Assembly (NCBI GenBank): GCA_003140855.1
Contig: PLLF01000093.1
Span: 1 to 64,000, forward strand
DNA length: 64,000 bases
Source of the DNA: Vulcanimicrobiota bacterium
Lineage (GTDB): Bacteria > Vulcanimicrobiota > Vulcanimicrobiia > Vulcanimicrobiales > Vulcanimicrobiaceae
Direction of reading: 5' to 3'
Shown here: positions 1 through 49,901 of the stretch, one piece after another
Position numbering within the stretch: the stretch's first letter is position 1
How the letters are laid out: every line of letters starts with the position of its first letter
Notes under the pieces: model-generated
The model's input: only the letters and a program-made list of their open reading frames with translations
Told to the model about the DNA's origin: nothing
Databases searched by the model: none
Translations under genes and position numbers: made by a program

Positions 1-2132
1 CGGTTGAGAAACTCGGGGCGGAACGTGTGTTTGACTTCCTCCAACACCTTGTTCTTCATCCGCTCGTACGCGCGTAACTCGTCTTCTTCGGTGTTTTTCT
101 GCGTACGGAAGCCGATGTCGGTCGTCGTTTGCATGCCGGTGGCGCCGATATTGGACGTCATTACGATAACGCAATTTTTGAAGTCCACCTGCCGGCCTTG
201 CGAATCGGTCAGGCGCCCATCGTCGAGTACTTGGAGTAAAAGGTTGAAGACGTCGGGATGCGCTTTTTCGATTTCGTCGAGCAGCACGACCGCGTACGGA
301 CGGCGCCGCACGGCTTCGGTCAATTGGCCGCCTTCTTCGTAGCCGACGTATCCGGGCGGAGCTCCGACCAACCGCGACACCGCATACTTCTCCATGTACT
401 CAGACATGTCGATGCGGATCATCGATTCTTGATCGTCGAACAAAAATTCGGCAACGCTGCGCGCGACTTCGGTCTTGCCAACGCCGGTCGGTCCTAAGAA
501 CAGGAAGCAGCCGATGGGGCGATTTGGATTCTTCAGTCCGGCGCGCGAACGGCGAATGGCTCGCGTCACCACTTCGATCGATTCTTCTTGGCCGACGACG
601 CGTTTGTGCAGCGACTCCTTCATGTTGAGGAGCTTCTCTGTTTCGGCCTGCGCGAGACGGCTGACCGGGATCCTCGTCCAGGAAGAGACGATGTGCGCGA
701 TGTCTTCCTCGGTAACTTTGACGACCTTGTCGCTCTGCGCGCGCTTCTCTTGCCATTCTTGTTCGAGGCGCGCTTTCTCCAAGCGCAGCTTCTCTTCGCG
801 ATCGCGCAGCTCGGCGGCTTTGTCGAACTCCTGAGCTTTGACGACGGCTTCCTTTTCGGCCACCATCTTGCGCAGCTGAGCGTCGACGTCGCGAATTTCT
901 TGCGGCGGCATCCCCGCCTGCAGGCGCACGCGCGAAGCGGCTTCGTCCATTAAATCGACCGCTTTGTCGGGCAAGAAGCGATCGGTGATATAGCGATCGC
1001 CCAAACGCGCCGCGGCTGCGAGCGCTTCATCGGTGATCTGCACCTTGTGATGCGCTTCATAGCGGTCGCGCAGGCCCTTGAGGATTTCGATCGTCTCTTC
1101 GACGCTCGGCTCTCCGACCATGACCGGCTGGAAGCGGCGCTCCAGCGCCGAGTCTTTTTCGATGTGCTTGCGGAATTCGTTTAATGTAGTCGCGCCGATG
1201 CATTGCAACTCGCCGCGCGCCAGCGCCGGCTTGATAATGTTGCTCGCATCGATGGCGCCTTCCGCGGCGCCGGCGCCGACCAGCGTATGCAGCTCGTCGA
1301 TAAAGAGAATGATCTCGCCGGCTGCGGCGCGGATCTCGTCCATGACGCGCTTCATGCGTTCTTCGAACTCGCCGCGATATTTCGTTCCGGCAACCAAGCC
1401 TGCGAGATCGAGCGTGATCACGCGTTTGTCGCGAAGCGGCTCGGGAATGTCGCCCTTGATGACGCGTTGCGCCAAGCCTTCGGCGATCGCCGTCTTGCCG
1501 ACGCCGGGTTCACCGATGAGCGCCGGATTGTTCTTCGTGCGGCGCGACAGAATTTGAATGACGCGCTCGATCTCATTGGCTCGCCCGATAACCGGATCGA
1601 GTTTGTTGTCGCGCGCTAGTTGTGTGAGATCGCGGCCGTAGGCGTCGAGCGTGGGCGTCTTGCTCTTGCCTTTGGGGGGAGACGGCTGACCTTCGGCGCC
1701 GAGCAGCGACGTCGTCTGCACGCGAACCTTCGCCGGATCGACGCCGAGATTCGTCAGCACGCGCGCGGCCACACCCTCGCCTTCGCGGATTAAACCAAGG
1801 AGCAGATGCTCCGTACCGATGTAGTTATGATTGAGCTGCCGCGCCTCTTCAAACGCGAGCTCGATGACGCGTTTGGCGCGCGGAGTGAAGACCATCTCTT
1901 GCTGGACCGTCTGGCCGCCGCGGCCGACGATCGCTTCGACTTCCTGGCGTACCTTGGCAAGATTGACGCCCAGCGTCTCGAGCACTTTGGCCGCCAGGCT
2001 CTCGCCCTCGGAGATGATGCCGAGCAGAATGTGCTCGGTGCCGATGTAGTTGTTGCCGAGCCGCTGGGCCTCTTCCTGAGCCAGCACAATGCTGCGCCGC
2101 GCGCGCTCGGTGAACGGTTCCCACATTGACAT
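1..2132 (-). CDS. clpC: ATP-dependent Clp protease ATP-binding subunit ClpC (partial, runs off left edge)
   Basis: Reverse translation from ATG at 2132 gives [39 protein letters not shown] with a second Clp_N repeat ([27 protein letters not shown]), followed by AAA+ sequence; AGGAGA Shine-Dalgarno upstream. Confidence 0.95.
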
Positions 2133-2224
2133 ATTCTGTCTCTCCTACTGCCCTATACACGTCCGGGTTCCTAGAGGTTGAACTACTAACACGGCTCCGG
2201 CGTTACAAGCTGCGCTCACTCTAC

Positions 2225-2674
2225 TCAGAAGCTGAAGCGCAGGCCCACAAAGCCGGCCGTGGCCCCCGTGTCTTTCGTCTGCCGGTCCACCCGGAGCTCG
2301 ATCGACGTGAACGGGGCGATCGACTTCCCGGCAAATACCGTAAAGACCGGGCCGGTGGTGCGATCGCCCGACAGGTTGGCTATCCCGGCCCCCGCGCCCA
2401 CGTAGGCGCCGCCGAAACCGCCACCAGTAAAGCCGCGGATTTCCCCGGTCAAAGCATATCCGCCACCGCCGCTGATCGCCGTAAGCAAGGAAGCCTGAAC
2501 CTCCAAAGGCACCGCCGGAATGGAAGCCCCGCTGCTGAGTATTATCGCCCCTCCGGTGGACGAGGGCGCATTTTGCGTGTAGCCGCCGGCGGCTATGGAA
2601 ACTGAAGCCAAGGCGTGGATCGGCAACGCTGTAAGCGCCGCGAGGGTTGCAACGATTAACAGTGTTGGACGCAT
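2225..2674 (-). CDS. Secreted/outer-membrane beta-barrel-like protein
   Basis: N-terminal signal peptide (MRPTLLIVATLAALTALPIHALA), Gly-rich body, C-terminal aromatic residue (GLRFSF). Confidence 0.6.
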   Translation of the reverse strand: MRPTLLIVATLAALTALPIHALASVSIAAGGYTQNAPSSTGGAIILSSGASIPAVPLEVQASLLTAISGGGGYALTGEIRGFTGGGFGGAYVGAGAGIANLSGDRTTGPVFTVFAGKSIAPFTSIELRVDRQTKDTGATAGFVGLRFSF

Positions 2675-2734
2675 GGGCGAATGTTTTTGCCACGCGCAGG
2701 CGATGGCCTCGCAGGAGCCGCAAGAAAGGGTACG

Positions 2735-3046
2735 ATGCCAACGGTCGATCAGGTTCGTGAAGCGCTAGCCGAAGTCAAGGATCCCGAGCTTCAACTCGGG
2801 ATTATGGAGCTCGGTTTGGTGTACGACGTCGCCGTCGAAGGCGAGGGTGGCGAGCACGTCGTCGTCACGATGACGCTAACCTCGCCGATGTGTCCGGTCG
2901 GTCCGATGTTCAAGCAATCGGTTGAAGATCGCGTCAAGGCGGTCGAAGGCGTGAAAGACGTCGTCGTGGACATCACGTTCACGCCACCTTGGGATCCCAA
3001 AGAAATGGCGAGCGACGACGTCAAGGCGCTGCTCGGAATTTGGTAG
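2735..3046 (+). CDS. MIP18/PaaD-type iron-sulfur assembly protein (DUF59)
   Basis: MPTVDQVREALAEVKDPELQLGIMELGLVYDV...TSPMCPVGP...FTPPWDP; ATG with upstream AAAGGG. Confidence 0.9.
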   Translation: MPTVDQVREALAEVKDPELQLGIMELGLVYDVAVEGEGGEHVVVTMTLTSPMCPVGPMFKQSVEDRVKAVEGVKDVVVDITFTPPWDPKEMASDDVKALLGIW

Positions 3047-3050
3047 CTCG

Positions 3051-3410
3051 CTAGACGCGGGGAAAGATCTCGGCTGCGTCGATGTCGTTGTGCAGCAGCA
3101 ATTTGCCGACGCGCTGGGTGACTGAGAAAAAACCGCGCACCGACACACGCTCTCCCTCATACATGGGCGTGTGCTCGCGCATGAACACCTGCACGCACTT
3201 GCCGTTGCAGAGATAGAACGTTTCAGCCGGCGTGCCGAACGAAGCGCCGCGCAGCTGACGCAGCCGCTCGACGTTGCCCGTGGCGATCACCGGATGCCCC
3301 GAATAATAGACGGGATTGAGTGCGAGCGCGTTGGGCGTCACCGCATAGTCGATAAACGGCGAACATCCGCCAAAAAGTGGCCACAGCAGGCACGTGATCG
3401 CGTGTATCAT
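3051..3410 (-). CDS. Hypothetical protein, possibly OB-fold
   Basis: ATG at 3410 overlaps the upstream GGDEF gene stop (ATGA); N-terminal hydrophobic segment. Confidence 0.55.
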   Translation of the reverse strand: MIHAITCLLWPLFGGCSPFIDYAVTPNALALNPVYYSGHPVIATGNVERLRQLRGASFGTPAETFYLCNGKCVQVFMREHTPMYEGERVSVRGFFSVTQRVGKLLLHNDIDAAEIFPRV

Positions 3411-4594
3411 GTTGGGAATTTCACGGCGCTGCCGAGCAGGCGCTTCTGCGCGTAGAGCTGCGCGTCGGCCTGGCGCAGCGAACCGTCGACGTCGAGCGGA
3501 TTGAACGGCGCGATTCCCCACGAGACCGTCAAGGGCACGGGATCGTGCGCCTCCATCACCTCGAGCGCTTGCGGAGGCTGCATGCGCGTGATGCGATCGC
3601 GCGCTTGTTCCGCAGTCAGCCCGAAAATCAGCAGCACGAATTCGTCGCCGCCCCAGCGGAACACGTAGTCTTGGGCGCGCGCGAGCGCACGCAGGCACTG
3701 CGCCACGCTCAAGAGCGCGCGGTCGCCGTTATGGTGGCCGTACGTGTCGTTGATGCGTTTGAGATTATCCAGATCGAGAATCGCGACATTTCCCTGATCG
3801 GCGCGATGGCGCAGGCCGTCGGTGAGCGTGTAAAATGCATAACGGTTATGCAGGCCCGTCAACGCGTCAACTTTCGCGGCCACTTCCAAGCTGCTCAGCG
3901 CGCGGGTGAGCGCGGCGTTTCCATTTTCGACTTCGATGCGCAATTCATCGAGCAGCGTGATGAGCTGGCCCATCGCAAGCATCGTTGCCAAGATGCCGCC
4001 GACGACGACTTCCGCCGACCAGTAGAGCGCGTTGAGTTCCGCATGCTGAAATCCCAAATATGCGGACGCCAGCAACGTACGTCCCATCATCAGTGCGAGC
4101 AGCGCGGCGGAGATAAAAATTGGCCGGACTCCGCTGAGGCGCCGCTCGCGAATGAATGGTAAGACCGCAACGCAGACGACCACCATCGCAACGAATAGCG
4201 TAATTTCAGGCCCGATGAGATCGGCGGTGAGATCCGTGCGCGAAGTGACGAAGAGACTGATCGCGGCGCCAGCAACGATGAGTACATTAGCCCATAGCGG
4301 CACGCCTTTGGCTTTTGCGAATTCGTAAGAGCCGGCGACGGCCCCGTACCCCGCCGCGATGCACAGCAGCGTGCCGACATAAGCCATCGCGCTCTCGATG
4401 CCCGCGTTGTGCTGACCGATAGCTTCGGCCGCGAGCGCAAATGCGAACAGCGTCCAGCCGCGAAACCACCAGCGTCCGCATTCGTCTTTGGTGGCGCTCA
4501 TCAGCAGCAGGAAAAATCCCGCAATGATGGCCATAGCAACGCTCTCGATGGTGAGGATTAACTGCAGGAGACTCTGCGCGCCGAGCGCGATCAT
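3407..4594 (-). CDS. Membrane-bound diguanylate cyclase (GGDEF)
   Basis: Multiple N-terminal TM helices; DALTGLHNRYAFY and intact RWGGDEFVLL. Confidence 0.92.
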   Translation of the reverse strand: MIALGAQSLLQLILTIESVAMAIIAGFFLLLMSATKDECGRWWFRGWTLFAFALAAEAIGQHNAGIESAMAYVGTLLCIAAGYGAVAGSYEFAKAKGVPLWANVLIVAGAAISLFVTSRTDLTADLIGPEITLFVAMVVVCVAVLPFIRERRLSGVRPIFISAALLALMMGRTLLASAYLGFQHAELNALYWSAEVVVGGILATMLAMGQLITLLDELRIEVENGNAALTRALSSLEVAAKVDALTGLHNRYAFYTLTDGLRHRADQGNVAILDLDNLKRINDTYGHHNGDRALLSVAQCLRALARAQDYVFRWGGDEFVLLIFGLTAEQARDRITRMQPPQALEVMEAHDPVPLTVSWGIAPFNPLDVDGSLRQADAQLYAQKRLLGSAVKFPT

Positions 4595-4648
4595 CTTCGG
4601 CCCGCGGCCTTATAGGAGAAAACGCCCATCCGTTCAAGCCCAGAAACG

Positions 4649-6202
4649 GTGAAGAACAACCAGGCTAAGTACGCTGAGCTGCAGCGCAAACGCGAGCTTG
4701 CGGCCGCGCCGGCCGGCGCCGAAGCAGTCGAAAAGCAGCACCGCCGCGGCAAGCGCACTGCCCGCGAACGTATTGAGGCTTTGGTTGATGCGAAGTCGTT
4801 CATCGAACTCGATCAGTTTGCAGTACACCGCACGACTGCATTCGGGCTAGGAGAGCGTGAATTCTTAGGCGACGGCGTTGTAACGGGCCGCGCGACGATA
4901 GACGGCCGCCAAATCTTCCTCTTCTCACAGGATTTTACTGTTCTCGGCGGTTCCCTGGGTGAGGTTTTCGCCGAAAAGATTTGCAAGGTCATGGATCTGG
5001 CGATGCGCACGGGTTCGCCCATCATCGGAATCAATGATTCCGGCGGCGCGCGCATCCAGGAAGGCGTCGTCAGTTTGGGCGGTTACGCGGAAATTTTCTG
5101 GCGCAACGTACAAGCCAGCGGCGTGATCCCGCAAATCAGCCTCGTCGCCGGGCCCTGCGCCGGCGGCGCGGTCTACTCGCCGGCGATAACCGATTTCATC
5201 ATCATGACCGAAGGTATCGGCCAGATGTTCATCACGGGCCCCGAAATCATCAAGACGGTCACCGGTGAAGAAGTGACCTTCGAAGAGCTCGGCGGCGCCG
5301 TCACGCACGCAACCAAGAGCGGGGTCGCGCACTTAGTAGCTTCCGACGAAGACGAGATGACCGAGTTTGCCAAGACGCTGCTCTCGTATCTGCCTCAAAA
5401 CAACCTCGACGATCCGCCGCGCTTCAGTTGTGATGACGACCCCGAACGTCTCGTCACCGAGCTCGACGGTATCATTCCGGACTCTCCCAACAAACCATAC
5501 GACATGCATGCGGTCATCAGGCCGGTGCTCGATGACGGCGATTTCTTCGAAATACAGCCGCTCTTCGCGCAAAACATTATCACGGGTTTTGGCAGAGTGA
5601 ACGGGCAGACCGTTGGCCTAGTGGCCAATCAGCCCAACGTCCTGGCGGGCGTCCTGGACATCAAAAGTTCGATCAAAGCGGCGCGCTTCGTCCGCTTTTG
5701 CGACGCTTTCAACATTCCGCTGGTCACGTTCGTCGACGTTCCCGGGTTCTTGCCCGGAACCGATCAAGAGTACGGCGGCATCATCACGCACGGCGCAAAG
5801 TTGTTGTACGCCTTCGCCGAAGCGACGGTTCCAAAGATCACCGTCATTACGCGAAAGGCATACGGCGGAGCCTACGACGTGATGGCGAGCAAACACATCC
5901 GCGCCGACATCAATGTGGCCTGGCCGACCGCCGAGATTGCGGTGATGGGCGCCGAGAGCGCCGTCAAAACGATCTTCAAGCGCGAACTGGCGGCCGCCAA
6001 AGACAAAGACGCCAAAATGCAAGAACTGGTCGAAAGTTATCGCGAGCGGTTCGACAACCCGTTCATCGCCGCCGAGCGCGGGTACGTGGACGACGTCGTC
6101 GAGGCACGCATGACCCGTCGCGTCATCGCCAAATCGCTCGACATGCTGGCCAATAAGCGCGTCGAGCGCCCCAAACGCAAGCACGGCAATATCCCGCTTT
6201 GA
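4649..6202 (+). CDS. Acyl-CoA (propionyl-CoA-type) carboxylase beta chain / carboxyltransferase
   Basis: [78 protein letters not shown] start. Confidence 0.95.
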
Positions 6203-34388: not shown

Positions 34389-36322
34389 ACCGGTTCCTCC
34401 ACCAGTTCTAAAGCGCCGGCGCCGTCGGAAACCGGTAGAAGAGCATTTTCAACGCGCGCGGCGACGTCTTCGCCGGTTAGGCCAAACAGCGCGCGTTGTT
34501 TGGGCTGCGAATCGTGTTGTACCAGCACGCTCGGAACGCCGACCCGTTCGACCCTGACGTTCAAGCCGCGATCTGAAACAAACTCGGCGACGGCCGAACC
34601 GAATCCGCCCGCCAGCGAGTGCTCTTCGAGCGTAATGAAGTGCGAGTGGTTTGCCGCGAGCTCCACCAGAAGTGCTTCGTCGATCGGCTTCGCGAAGCGC
34701 ATGTTGACGACGGTCACATCACCGTTCACCAGAGCGTGAGCATCCAGCGCCACGTCCACCGTATTGCCGTAAGCCAGGATCGCAACGCGCATGTCATCCT
34801 GAGTTTGTCGAAGGGCGCGGCGCAGCACCTCGCCGCGTCCATGCACGATCGGCGCAACGGGATCGCGATATTTTCCGCTGGTCGAACCGCGCGGATAGCG
34901 AATCGCCGCCGGGCCATCCAGCGAGAGCGCGTGCTCGAGCATCGGATACAGCTCTTCCTCGTTGCGCGGCGCCATGCACGTCATGTTCGGCAGCGTGCGC
35001 ATATACGCGATATCGTAAAGGCCCATATGCGTGGGACCGTCATCGCCGACCATGCCCGCGCGATCCATGCAAAAGACGACCGGTAAATTTTGTACGCAGA
35101 CGTCGTGTACGACCTGATCGTACGCCCGCTGCAGGAACGTCGAGTAAATCGCGCAGACCGGCCTGAGTCCGTTCGTCGCCGCGCCCGCGGCAAAACACAC
35201 GGCGTGCGCTTCGGCTATGCCGACGTCGAAATAGCGCTCGGGAAAGCGTTTGGCAAACTTCGAAAGCCCGGTGCCGTCGGGCATTGCGGCCGTGATGCCG
35301 ATCACGCGCGGATCCTTTTCGGCCAGCGCGATCATCGCATCGGCGAACACGTCCTGAAACTTTGGCGCCGCGGGCGCAGCGGCTTTTTTGCTGCCGTCGC
35401 GCGGCTCGAACGCGTTGGCGCCGATGCCGTGGAAGGTTCGCGAGTCGCGCTCCGCCGGCTCGTAGCCTTTGCCTTTCACGGTACGAATATGTAAGAGCAC
35501 CGCGCGCGGAATTGCCTTCGCGGTCTCGAGAGCGTCGACCAGCGTATCGTAGTTGTGGCCGTCGATGGCTCCGATGTAGCGGAAACCGAGCTCTTCGAAA
35601 ATGACGGCGGCTTTTTCCGAAGGCGCTATGAACCGCATCGCTCCGAGCTCGGCCGACTCGAACGCTTTCTTCGCCATGCCTCCCAGCGGCAGATGATCGA
35701 GCACGTGCTTTCCGGTCGCGCGCACTTGATTGGCAAACGGCTTGCTGCGAAGAACCGAGAGGTACGACGCGATCGATCCGACGTTGGGCGCTATCGACAT
35801 TTCGTTGTCGTTGAGAATCACGATGAAATTGCTGCGCATCTGCCCGGCATTGTTGAGCGCTTCGTAAGCCAGGCCGCCGGTCAGCGCGCCGTCGCCGATC
35901 ACCGCCACGATCGTTTCGTTGCCGCCGGTCAGGTCGCGCGCCCGCGCCATGCCGAGCGCGGCCGAAACGCCGGTGCTTGCGTGGCCGGCCCCAAAGCAAT
36001 CGTATTCGGATTCGGTGCGCATCGCAAAGCCCGAGATTCCGCCGCCTTTTCGCAGCGTAGCAAAACGATCGCGCCGGCCCGTCAAGAGTTTGTGCACGTA
36101 CGTTTGGTGGCTGACGTCCCAGACGATCCGATCGTTGGGCAGATCGAGCGTGCGGTGAAGCGCGAGCGTCAGCTCGACCACGCCGAGGTTGGGAGCCAAA
36201 TGCCCCCCGTTTTGCACGCAGACTTCAACCAGCAGCTCGCGAATTTCGCAAGCCAGCAGATCGATCTCCGGGCGGGAAAGGGCTTTGACGTCGGCGGGAG
36301 AGTCGATGCGTTCGATTACCAT
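34385..36322 (-). CDS. dxs: 1-deoxy-D-xylulose-5-phosphate synthase
   Basis: GGHLAPNLGVVELTLALHRTLDLPNDRIVWDVSHQTYVHKLLTGR, GDGALTGGLAYEALNNAG, DRAGMVGDDGPTHMGLYDIAYMR. Confidence 0.97.
   Translation of the reverse strand: MVIERIDSPADVKALSRPEIDLLACEIRELLVEVCVQNGGHLAPNLGVVELTLALHRTLDLPNDRIVWDVSHQTYVHKLLTGRRDRFATLRKGGGISGFAMRTESEYDCFGAGHASTGVSAALGMARARDLTGGNETIVAVIGDGALTGGLAYEALNNAGQMRSNFIVILNDNEMSIAPNVGSIASYLSVLRSKPFANQVRATGKHVLDHLPLGGMAKKAFESAELGAMRFIAPSEKAAVIFEELGFRYIGAIDGHNYDTLVDALETAKAIPRAVLLHIRTVKGKGYEPAERDSRTFHGIGANAFEPRDGSKKAAAPAAPKFQDVFADAMIALAEKDPRVIGITAAMPDGTGLSKFAKRFPERYFDVGIAEAHAVCFAAGAATNGLRPVCAIYSTFLQRAYDQVVHDVCVQNLPVVFCMDRAGMVGDDGPTHMGLYDIAYMRTLPNMTCMAPRNEEELYPMLEHALSLDGPAAIRYPRGSTSGKYRDPVAPIVHGRGEVLRRALRQTQDDMRVAILAYGNTVDVALDAHALVNGDVTVVNMRFAKPIDEALLVELAANHSHFITLEEHSLAGGFGSAVAEFVSDRGLNVRVERVGVPSVLVQHDSQPKQRALFGLTGEDVAARVENALLPVSDGAGALELVEEPV
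34792..34817 (-). repeat. Dispersed palindromic repeat copy inside dxs (TGTCATCCTGAGTTTGTCGAAGGGCG)
   Basis: Reverse complement CGCCCTTCGACAAACTCAGGATGACA; encodes LRQTQDDM in the dxs frame. Confidence 0.75.
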
Positions 36323-45422: not shown

Positions 45423-46466
45423 ATGACGAAGGCCGACATCTTCAGGCTAACGCATCTTTCCAGCTGCGCCGGTTGAGCGTCTAAAATGGACGCTGCCGTC
45501 CTCGCGCAGGTCCTGCGCGAGCTGCCTCAGATCGCCGATCCGAATGTGCTGGTCGGCACCGCAACCGCCGACGATGCCGGAGTCTACCGGCTCACCGACG
45601 AGATCGCGCTCGTACAAACGGTCGATTTCTTCACACCAATTGTCGACGATCCGCGCGACTACGGACGGATTGCAGCCGCCAACGCGCTTTCGGATATTTA
45701 CGCTATGGGCGCGCGCCCGATCGCCGCACTGGCGATCGGCGCGTTTCCCGAAACGATGGATGCGCACGTCATCGCAAGTATTCTCGGGGGCGGCGCCGAG
45801 AAGGCGCGTGAAGCCGGAATCGAGATCATCGGTGGCCACACGATCAAAGACGATGAGCCGAAGTACGGGCTTGCGGTAACGGGCGTCGTGCATCCCGATC
45901 GCATCTGGCGCAACAACACCGGGAAACCCGGCGACGCTCTCGTGCTGACCAAACCGGTCGGCACCGGCATTCTTACGACCGCGCGCCGCAACGACGTGAT
46001 CGACGACGAGGCCTTGCGGCCCGCAATCGATTCGATGTTGGCGCTTAACCGCGATGCCGCGGAAATCGCGGCGCGCTTTGACGTGCACGCGGCGACCGAC
46101 GTGACCGGTTTCGGATTGATCGGTCACCTCGCCGAGATGACCTCGGGAGGAACAGGCGCGGAAATCTCCTCGCATGCCGTCGCGCAATTCGACGAAGTCG
46201 AGCGGCTCGCGCAAGCTGATGTCATTCCCAGTGGAACGCGCGCGAATTATCGTTTTGCCCTGGAGCGCGGCGTGCAGTTTTCCGAAAGCGTCGGCCTCGC
46301 ACGCCGAATGATCTTATGCGACGCTCAAACGTCGGGCGGATTGCTGCTCGCCGTGCCGCCGGATCGCTCGACCGAGCTCGTGCATGCGCTAAAAAATGCC
46401 GGGCTCGACGGCGCAAGCGAAATTGGCACGCTTACGCCCGAGCCCGTGATCCTTGTTGTCGATTAA
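45423..46466 (+). CDS. selD: Selenide, water dikinase, probable selenoprotein (UGA at 45474-45476 = Sec)
   Basis: Continuous frame MTKADIFRLTHLSSCAG-(UGA)-ASKMDAAVLAQVLRELPQIADPNVLVGTATADDAGVY...VQTVDFFTPIVDDPRDYGRIAAANALSDIYAMGARPIAALAI. Confidence 0.92.
45501..45521 (+). promoter_or_regulatory. Candidate bacterial SECIS hairpin of selD
   Basis: CTCGCGCAG-GTC-CTGCGCGAG: perfect 9-bp stem, 3-nt loop starting with G, stem starts 24 nt after the in-frame UGA. Confidence 0.65.
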
Positions 46467-46482
46467 CTAACGGGAGGGACCT

Positions 46483-48198
46483 ATGAAAAGTTCGCATCCG
46501 GCGCTTCGCATTGTTACAGTAGTGGCGCTCTCGCTGTTTTTCTGCCTTTGGTGCTTGCCCGATCTCGTTAGAGTGGCGGGCCATCCCAACGGAGAGCTCG
46601 GCTTACGAACCGACGGCCATACAGCGGAAACGGTTGTACCGGATACCCCGGCGCAACACGCCGGCATTCGCCCGGGACAACGCCTCGATCTCTCCAGATT
46701 GCCGGCGGACCGGCGCTCCTCAATCATCGGCGGATATGTGACGGCTCCGGGCGTTACCGTCACCATCGGAGTGTGGCGAGCAGGCAAATTCGCTCCCGTG
46801 ACGCTGCGTTCGATTCCCGAACAGACGGCGCCGGCATTCATCGTGATCCGCGAGATTGTCTTTCTCGTACCATTGCTAATCGGGATATTCTTGGTTCTCT
46901 TACGCCCCAGTCCGATTACGTGGGGATTCTTTCTGTTCTCCTTGGCTGCCGGCGGTGTTCCGCCGACGTCCGTCTTCTCTTCGCGCGTCATCTCGAAGTG
47001 GGATTGGTATGTCATCTGGAGCAGCATAGACGTCCTCCTCATTTCAATGCTGCCGAAAACGGGGCTCGTGTTGTTTGCGTTCAGTCTCGCTCGCCGGCCG
47101 CTCGGTCTTTGGCCGCGCGTTGCAATCGCGACCACCGCGATCGTCGGCGTGATCGAGGCAGTGCCTGCGTTCCTGTTTCCGGACACTGCCTTAAATGGCT
47201 GGCCCACGCTCAACGTCGCGGGCGACCTGCTTGCCGCCGCGATCGCGCTGGGCGGACTCCTTTACGCTTACGCGCACGTCGCGATCCGTTTGCGCCAGCG
47301 GCTGCACTGGATCGCTGCCGGTTTTGTTTTCTGGATCGTCATCGACGTGGCCGACGCGCTCCTTTGGCCCGGTTACGAGCCCTACTGGGTGCACACTGCG
47401 ATGGATGCCTCGCAAGTGATCTTCCCGCTTACCGTCGCCTATGCGATCTTCCGCGAGCGCGTCGTCGATATTAACTTCGTCGTGAGCCGCACGGTGGCGT
47501 ACGGATTGCTGACGACCATCATCGTCGGCGTCTTCGCGCTCATCGACCTGTTCTTGTCGCGCACGATGGAAGCCCGGTTCAGTCTTCCTGTCGATATCGT
47601 GGTCGCGCTGGTTCTCGGTTTCTTCTTCCATGGGATGCGCCGCCGCATCGACGACGGAGTGGATCGCGTGATCTTTCGGAAACGGCACTTCGCCGAGATG
47701 CGCCTTGCAAAAGCTGCAAGAGCCGTCGTGCACGTGGACGACTCGAGCGCGATTGCCGATTACCTCACGCGGTTGCCGGCCGAAGTTTTGGACCTTACGG
47801 GAGCTGCGCTCTACATGCGCCGCGGCGGCGGGTTCGCGCTGGAACGCTGCGCGGGCTGGAAACACGAGCCCACCGCGGTGCTCGCTACGTCGGATCCGCT
47901 GGTTGCGTTCATCAGCGCCGAATTAGGTTGCGTCCGCGTAGGCGACGTGCCGATGCGCGAAGCACCGCCCGATCGTCACGATGCCGCCGTCCTTGCAATT
48001 CCACTCGTCTTCCGCCGGGAACTTGCGGGCTTCGCGCTCTATGGAGCTCACGAGGACGGCGCCGACTTGGACGCCGACGACGAGCGGGCGCTCTTGCCGC
48101 TCGTCAATAACGCGGCGGTGACGTACGACCACATCGAAGCGCAAGCTCTGCGCGAGGAGAATCGCCAGTTAAGGTCCTTACAGGTGGTGGTTTCATGA
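46483..48198 (+). CDS. PDZ-multi-TM-GAF-like receptor protein without recognisable kinase domain (copy 1)
   Basis: DTPAQHAGIRPGQRLDLSRLP (PDZ-like), multiple TM helices, [21 protein letters not shown]-terminal GAF-like region ending QALREENRQLRSLQ. Confidence 0.75.
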   Translation: MKSSHPALRIVTVVALSLFFCLWCLPDLVRVAGHPNGELGLRTDGHTAETVVPDTPAQHAGIRPGQRLDLSRLPADRRSSIIGGYVTAPGVTVTIGVWRAGKFAPVTLRSIPEQTAPAFIVIREIVFLVPLLIGIFLVLLRPSPITWGFFLFSLAAGGVPPTSVFSSRVISKWDWYVIWSSIDVLLISMLPKTGLVLFAFSLARRPLGLWPRVAIATTAIVGVIEAVPAFLFPDTALNGWPTLNVAGDLLAAAIALGGLLYAYAHVAIRLRQRLHWIAAGFVFWIVIDVADALLWPGYEPYWVHTAMDASQVIFPLTVAYAIFRERVVDINFVVSRTVAYGLLTTIIVGVFALIDLFLSRTMEARFSLPVDIVVALVLGFFFHGMRRRIDDGVDRVIFRKRHFAEMRLAKAARAVVHVDDSSAIADYLTRLPAEVLDLTGAALYMRRGGGFALERCAGWKHEPTAVLATSDPLVAFISAELGCVRVGDVPMREAPPDRHDAAVLAIPLVFRRELAGFALYGAHEDGADLDADDERALLPLVNNAAVTYDHIEAQALREENRQLRSLQVVVS

Positions 48199-49897
48199 AA
48201 GCGTCGCATCCCGCGCTTCGTATCATTACGGTCGTCGCGCTCTCGCTGTTCTTCTGCCTGACGTATTTCCCGGATCTGCTTCGAGTGCTGGGCCAGCCGA
48301 ACGGCGATTGGGGATTTCGGACGAACGGAACCACCGTTACGGTCGTAGAGCCGGCCTCCCCGGCGCAGCGTGCCGGAATGCGTCCCGGCGATCGCATCGA
48401 TCTTTCGAATCTTCCGGACAGAGTTCGTTACGCAACACTCGGCGGCTTGGCGCGCGCGCCCGGTGACGTTTGGACCTTCAAAGTTTGGAAGCACGGACAA
48501 TTTGTGCCGGTAACCTTTCGCGCCGCGACGGAGCGTACGCTCCCGGCGTTCATCATCATCCGTGAATTTGCGTTTGCCGTGCCGCTCATCATCGGCATAT
48601 TTCTCGTCCTGCTGCGGCCGAGCCCGATAACCTGGGGGTTTTTCCTTTTCTCGCTGGCTGCGGGAGGCGCGGCGCCGAACTCCGTCTTGGCGGTGAGATA
48701 CCTGCCCTGGGAAGCGTCCACTCTGTGGTTTCGTACGTATCTCATTTTATTGAACGTGCTCCCGAAGACCGGACTCGTACTTTTTGCTTTCAGTTTAGCG
48801 CGCCGGCCGCTGGGCACTTGGCGCATCACTGCAATCTCGATCGTTGCGGCACTCGGCATTGTTGCAGCAATTCCGTACTTCATCGAAAACGACAACTACG
48901 GCTGGCCGCAACTCACCGCTTGGTGCGACGTCGTTGCGTCCGCGATTGCGCTCCTGGGTTTATTCGATGCGTACTCGCACGTGACCATGCGCTTGCGCCA
49001 GCGGCTCCATTGGATCGCCGCGGGTTTCCTGTTCTGGGTCGTCGTCGATGTCATCGATTCTCTGCTCTGGCCGGCCTACGAGCCGTATTGGGTTCACACG
49101 ACCATCGACGCATCGCAAGTCATCTTTCCGCTCGCCGTCGCCTATGCAATATTCCGCGAGCGCGTCGTCGACATCAATTTCGTCATGAGCCGTACGCTGG
49201 TTTACGGCCTGCTTACGGCCGTTATCGTCGGAATCTTCGCCCTTATCGATCTGTTCTTGTCGCGCACTATGGAGTCTCGACTCAGCCTGCCGGTCGATAT
49301 CGTCGCCGCGCTGATCCTCGGCTTCTTTTTTCATAGCATGCATAACCGGATCGATGCGGGCGTCGATCGCGTGATCTTCCGTAGGCGTTACATCGCTGAA
49401 GGCCGGCTGGCAAGAGCCGCCAAGGCGATCGTGCACGTCGAGGAGCCGGGCGCGGTTGCGAATTACCTCACGCGTCTGCCGGTCGAGGTGCTCGCTCTCA
49501 CCGGCGCCGCTTTGTACACGCGTCAGGGCGGTAGTTTTGTGCTTGAGCGCTGCGTCGGCTGGAAACACGAACCCGCAGCGGTCTTAACGACTTCGGATCC
49601 GCTGGTGGCCTTTATCAGCTCGGAGCTGGCCTGCGTTCGCGTGGGCGATGTGCCGATGCGCGAGGCGCCGCCGGATCGCCACGACACGGCGGTGTTGGCG
49701 ATCCCGCTGCTCTATCGCCGGGAGCTCGGCGGTTTTGTGCTTTATGGCGCGCATGAGGACGGCGCGGACGTCGATGCCGACGAAGAGCGCGCGCTCGAGC
49801 CGCTCGTCGAAAATGCCGCGGTGACGTACGACCACATCGAAGCGCAAGCTCTTCGCGAAGAGGTCCGTGCACTACGTTCGTTGCAGCCGGCGACCTC

Positions 49898-49901
<4 letters not shown>
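48195..49901 (+). CDS. PDZ-multi-TM-GAF-like receptor protein without recognisable kinase domain (copy 2, tandem paralogue)
   Basis: Collinear similarity to 46483-48198 over the full length; ATGA overlap with copy 1. Confidence 0.75.

Follow-up and report, generated by a model that had tools for sequence, protein, structure and literature searches.

An in-frame UGA at the catalytic position of SelD, predicted to encode selenocysteine, across a little-studied bacterial lineage

Known SelD systems and the selD frame

SelD and FdhA are the most widespread selenoproteins (PMC1794560), and selenocysteine (Sec) is found in 19% of the SelD proteins identified in reference prokaryotes (PMC4561486). 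A selenocysteine-containing SelD as such has long been described (PMC1794560, PMC4561486). Ordinary gene finding truncates such genes. In the described bacterial proteins Sec always occupies the same N-terminal catalytic position, and Cys and Sec forms interchange (PMC1794560, PMC4561486). The locus reported here shares both features and differs from those in lineage, records of its relatives being titled Candidatus Eremiobacterota. That title is carried by several of the named records nearest to our SelD, and the literature we searched, mostly without subscription journals, held no mention of Eremiobacter- together with selenocysteine. TGA was found at the catalytic position in 30 of 80 named genome loci, including some from Bacillales and Planctomycetota. 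Many of these 30 have the same LAQVLR-coding hairpin as ours. Outside the lineage, identity to our protein is mostly 48-56%. What is new here is a UGA-containing SelD across nearly the whole of a little-studied bacterial lineage.

The window, which is the whole stretch of 64,000 nucleotides analysed, belongs to the genome that we call G000. On its plus strand a single frame (45423-46466) runs from ATG 45423 to a stop at 46464-46466, and is interrupted only by one UGA, at 45474-45476; with that UGA read as selenocysteine, the product has 347 amino acids. The full-length read-through protein is SelD, matching TIGR00476 (NCBIfam) at 380.5 bits against a curated cutoff of 125. Its N-terminal motif reads MTKADIFRLTHLSSCAG-U-ASK, in which U is residue 18 and the Lys is residue 21, so that the N-terminal loop supplies the catalytic Cys/Sec and nearby Lys of a SelD. 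U18 followed by Lys21 corresponds to the E. coli SelD motif cited in an earlier note on this DNA. That note had placed the UGA on the catalytic Cys/Sec position, in a frame open on both sides and with the conserved Lys after it; the reading of the frame and the family match agree on the position, and the Lys is there. The UGA in this selD is very probably read as selenocysteine. We hold with high confidence, from sequence, that the product is a selenophosphate synthetase with selenocysteine as its catalytic residue 18.

Two neighbouring reading frames that resemble each other, 571 and 568 amino acids long, lie downstream of selD at 46483-49901; the first has a weak GAF-domain match.

The catalytic codon among relatives and the hairpin that follows it

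We searched 60 related genomes for SelD, and the in-frame UGA proved widespread among them. In the 46 SelD genes that could be read over their full length, the codon at the catalytic position was TGA in 39 and TGC or TGT in seven, with no other codon seen. The UGA was also present in the same-genus genomes G001-G006, whose SelD N termini were read. Labelling the SelD protein tree by Sec or Cys required a minimum of five changes, and well-supported branches make at least four of these unavoidable. Sec was the commoner state; with the root placed by midpoint only, the direction of change was likely one of Sec to Cys losses. A second UGA-containing SelD-like gene was noted in one relative (G015, contig C12; L064 around 1582-2562). 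In it Asn replaces the conserved Lys after the UGA, and the LAQVLR hairpin region is retained.

The UGA is followed directly by a conserved hairpin whose loop is of the GGUC type. In the window it occupies 45501-45521 on the plus strand, its stem pairing 45501-45509 with 45513-45521 around a GUC loop at 45510-45512. The 60 bases starting from the UGA (45474-45533) gave a z-score of -2.86 and folded better than all 200 of 200 shuffles. Covariation was assessed in 37 aligned UGA forms, with helix columns 28-36/40-48. Against shuffles that do not take out relatedness, 83.2% of helix cells were paired (77.2 shuffled), 19 cells had changed on both sides of the helix (5.1 shuffled), and helix covariation stood at 0.223 (0.119 shuffled), with slid versions of the helix reaching at most 0.070. 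Synonymous codons account for several of the helix changes, such as CAG...CTG versus CAA...TTG, and the pair between columns 36 and 40 was missing in nine of the 37 sequences. For the inner seven pairs, 90.5% of cells were paired in Sec forms and 57.1% in Cys forms. The distant genome G057 has the UGA with almost no hairpin at the same register (-0.2 kcal/mol). By primary sequence and covariation, the selD UGA is accompanied by a putative SECIS hairpin such as a bacterial selenoprotein should have. Another small hairpin may adjoin the UGA (45476-45494, plus strand); it appeared only in the single-sequence fold and was absent from the consensus fold.

Selenocysteine machinery and other UGA-containing genes

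The earlier note had predicted that other parts of the genome would carry selA, selB and selC, and all three were found, in a draft assembly of 116 contigs that is 94% complete. On contig C1, selB (1904-3739, 310 bits) and selA (3797-4867, 435 bits) adjoin, each scoring over its curated cutoff. The tRNA-Sec gene, selC, lies on contig C25 at 34546-34635 (73 bits), a call with which ARAGORN agrees, giving the anticodon tca; further matches to the tRNA-Sec model were weaker, at about 40-46 bits, under the gathering score. A second selB-like gene (L062) runs off the end of contig C52, which is 3290 bases long, and is adjoined by a transposase-like frame; a binning error is a possible explanation, and the gene was left out of account.

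In four relatives whose completeness is 91% or more (G018, G024, G028 and G036), SelA gave no match, SelB and tRNA-Sec gave none over cutoff, and the SelD superfamily gave only weak matches, none of them a genuine SelD. Such joint absence is as expected if the genes for SelA, SelB, tRNA-Sec and SelD are kept or lost together.

Other selenoproteins were sought by named family (formate dehydrogenase, AhpC/TSA, GPx, CMD and Rdx), along with selenouridine synthase. The earlier note had proposed looking for other UGA-containing selenoproteins; the named-family search turned up a second UGA gene in G000, a peroxiredoxin. An AhpC/TSA-family gene with one UGA was present in G000 and five relatives; the peroxiredoxin reading DDTPG-UGA-T.EGSQFRD was present in G000 and four relatives, a count that leaves out G004, for which the filter chose the wrong frame. 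The UGA in this motif stands at the peroxidatic Cys place of BCP-type peroxiredoxins. In the AhpC/TSA-family gene of G000 it falls at 742-744 of L199 (contig C49, about 32941), and a hairpin with a U-rich loop comes after it.

A formate-dehydrogenase-like gene with an in-frame UGA, in the context QAR[IL]-UGA-HSSTVPSL, was identified by family match in six same-genus genomes (L181-L184). Direct search with one relative's gene did not find it in the 94% complete draft of G000, which may reflect loss or a gap in the assembly. Across the genus the named-family search found neither a GPx nor a selenouridine synthase match over cutoff, no Rdx match at all, and no UGA in CMD. One further reading, based on named-family searches of a 94% complete draft, strikes us as unlikely: that this species maintains the whole Sec machinery for a very small number of proteins, perhaps SelD and one peroxiredoxin alone, and has lost formate dehydrogenase.

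Proposed mechanism and alternative readings

From the UGA, its conservation, the selA, selB and selC genes and the conserved hairpin, all of them observed, we infer insertion of selenocysteine. In the proposed mechanism, SelB with Sec-tRNA would bind the hairpin that follows the selD UGA and insert selenocysteine at that codon. The finished SelD would make selenophosphate, which SelA would use to make more Sec-tRNA, so that SelD would depend on its own product.

Three other readings of the UGA were weighed and rejected. The plain ORF list starts selD at the internal ATG (45486-45488, plus strand), as the earlier note had remarked of its own ORF track, and yields a frame of 326 amino acids; were this the true start, the upstream motif would be a relic. 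Such a start would cut off both the catalytic residue and Lys21, and conservation among relatives extends to the UGA and the motif upstream. The internal ATG itself is not a conserved start: among the 39 UGA forms, 15 have Met at the position, while V, L, A or I stands there in the remaining 24, and the homologues do not start there. We regard this reading as very improbable. An error of sequencing or assembly, turning TGC or TGT into TGA, might be suspected in a genome with so many contigs, but the same UGA recurs in separately assembled species across the lineage, and we give the idea almost no weight. Equally negligible is the proposal that some other amino acid is inserted at the UGA or that the codon undergoes general read-through: all seven non-UGA codons at this position encode Cys, G000 has a tRNA-Sec, and the hairpin goes with the UGA forms.

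Selenocysteine insertion thus stays the preferred reading, and the earlier note's view of SelD as a selenoprotein is supported, none of the three outcomes that it had named as counting against it having been seen. The annotation of this SelD, truncated so as to lack its catalytic loop, is hereby corrected. As a lineage-wide set containing both Sec and Cys forms, the group is useful for the study of selenocysteine loss and the later decay of the recoding hairpin.
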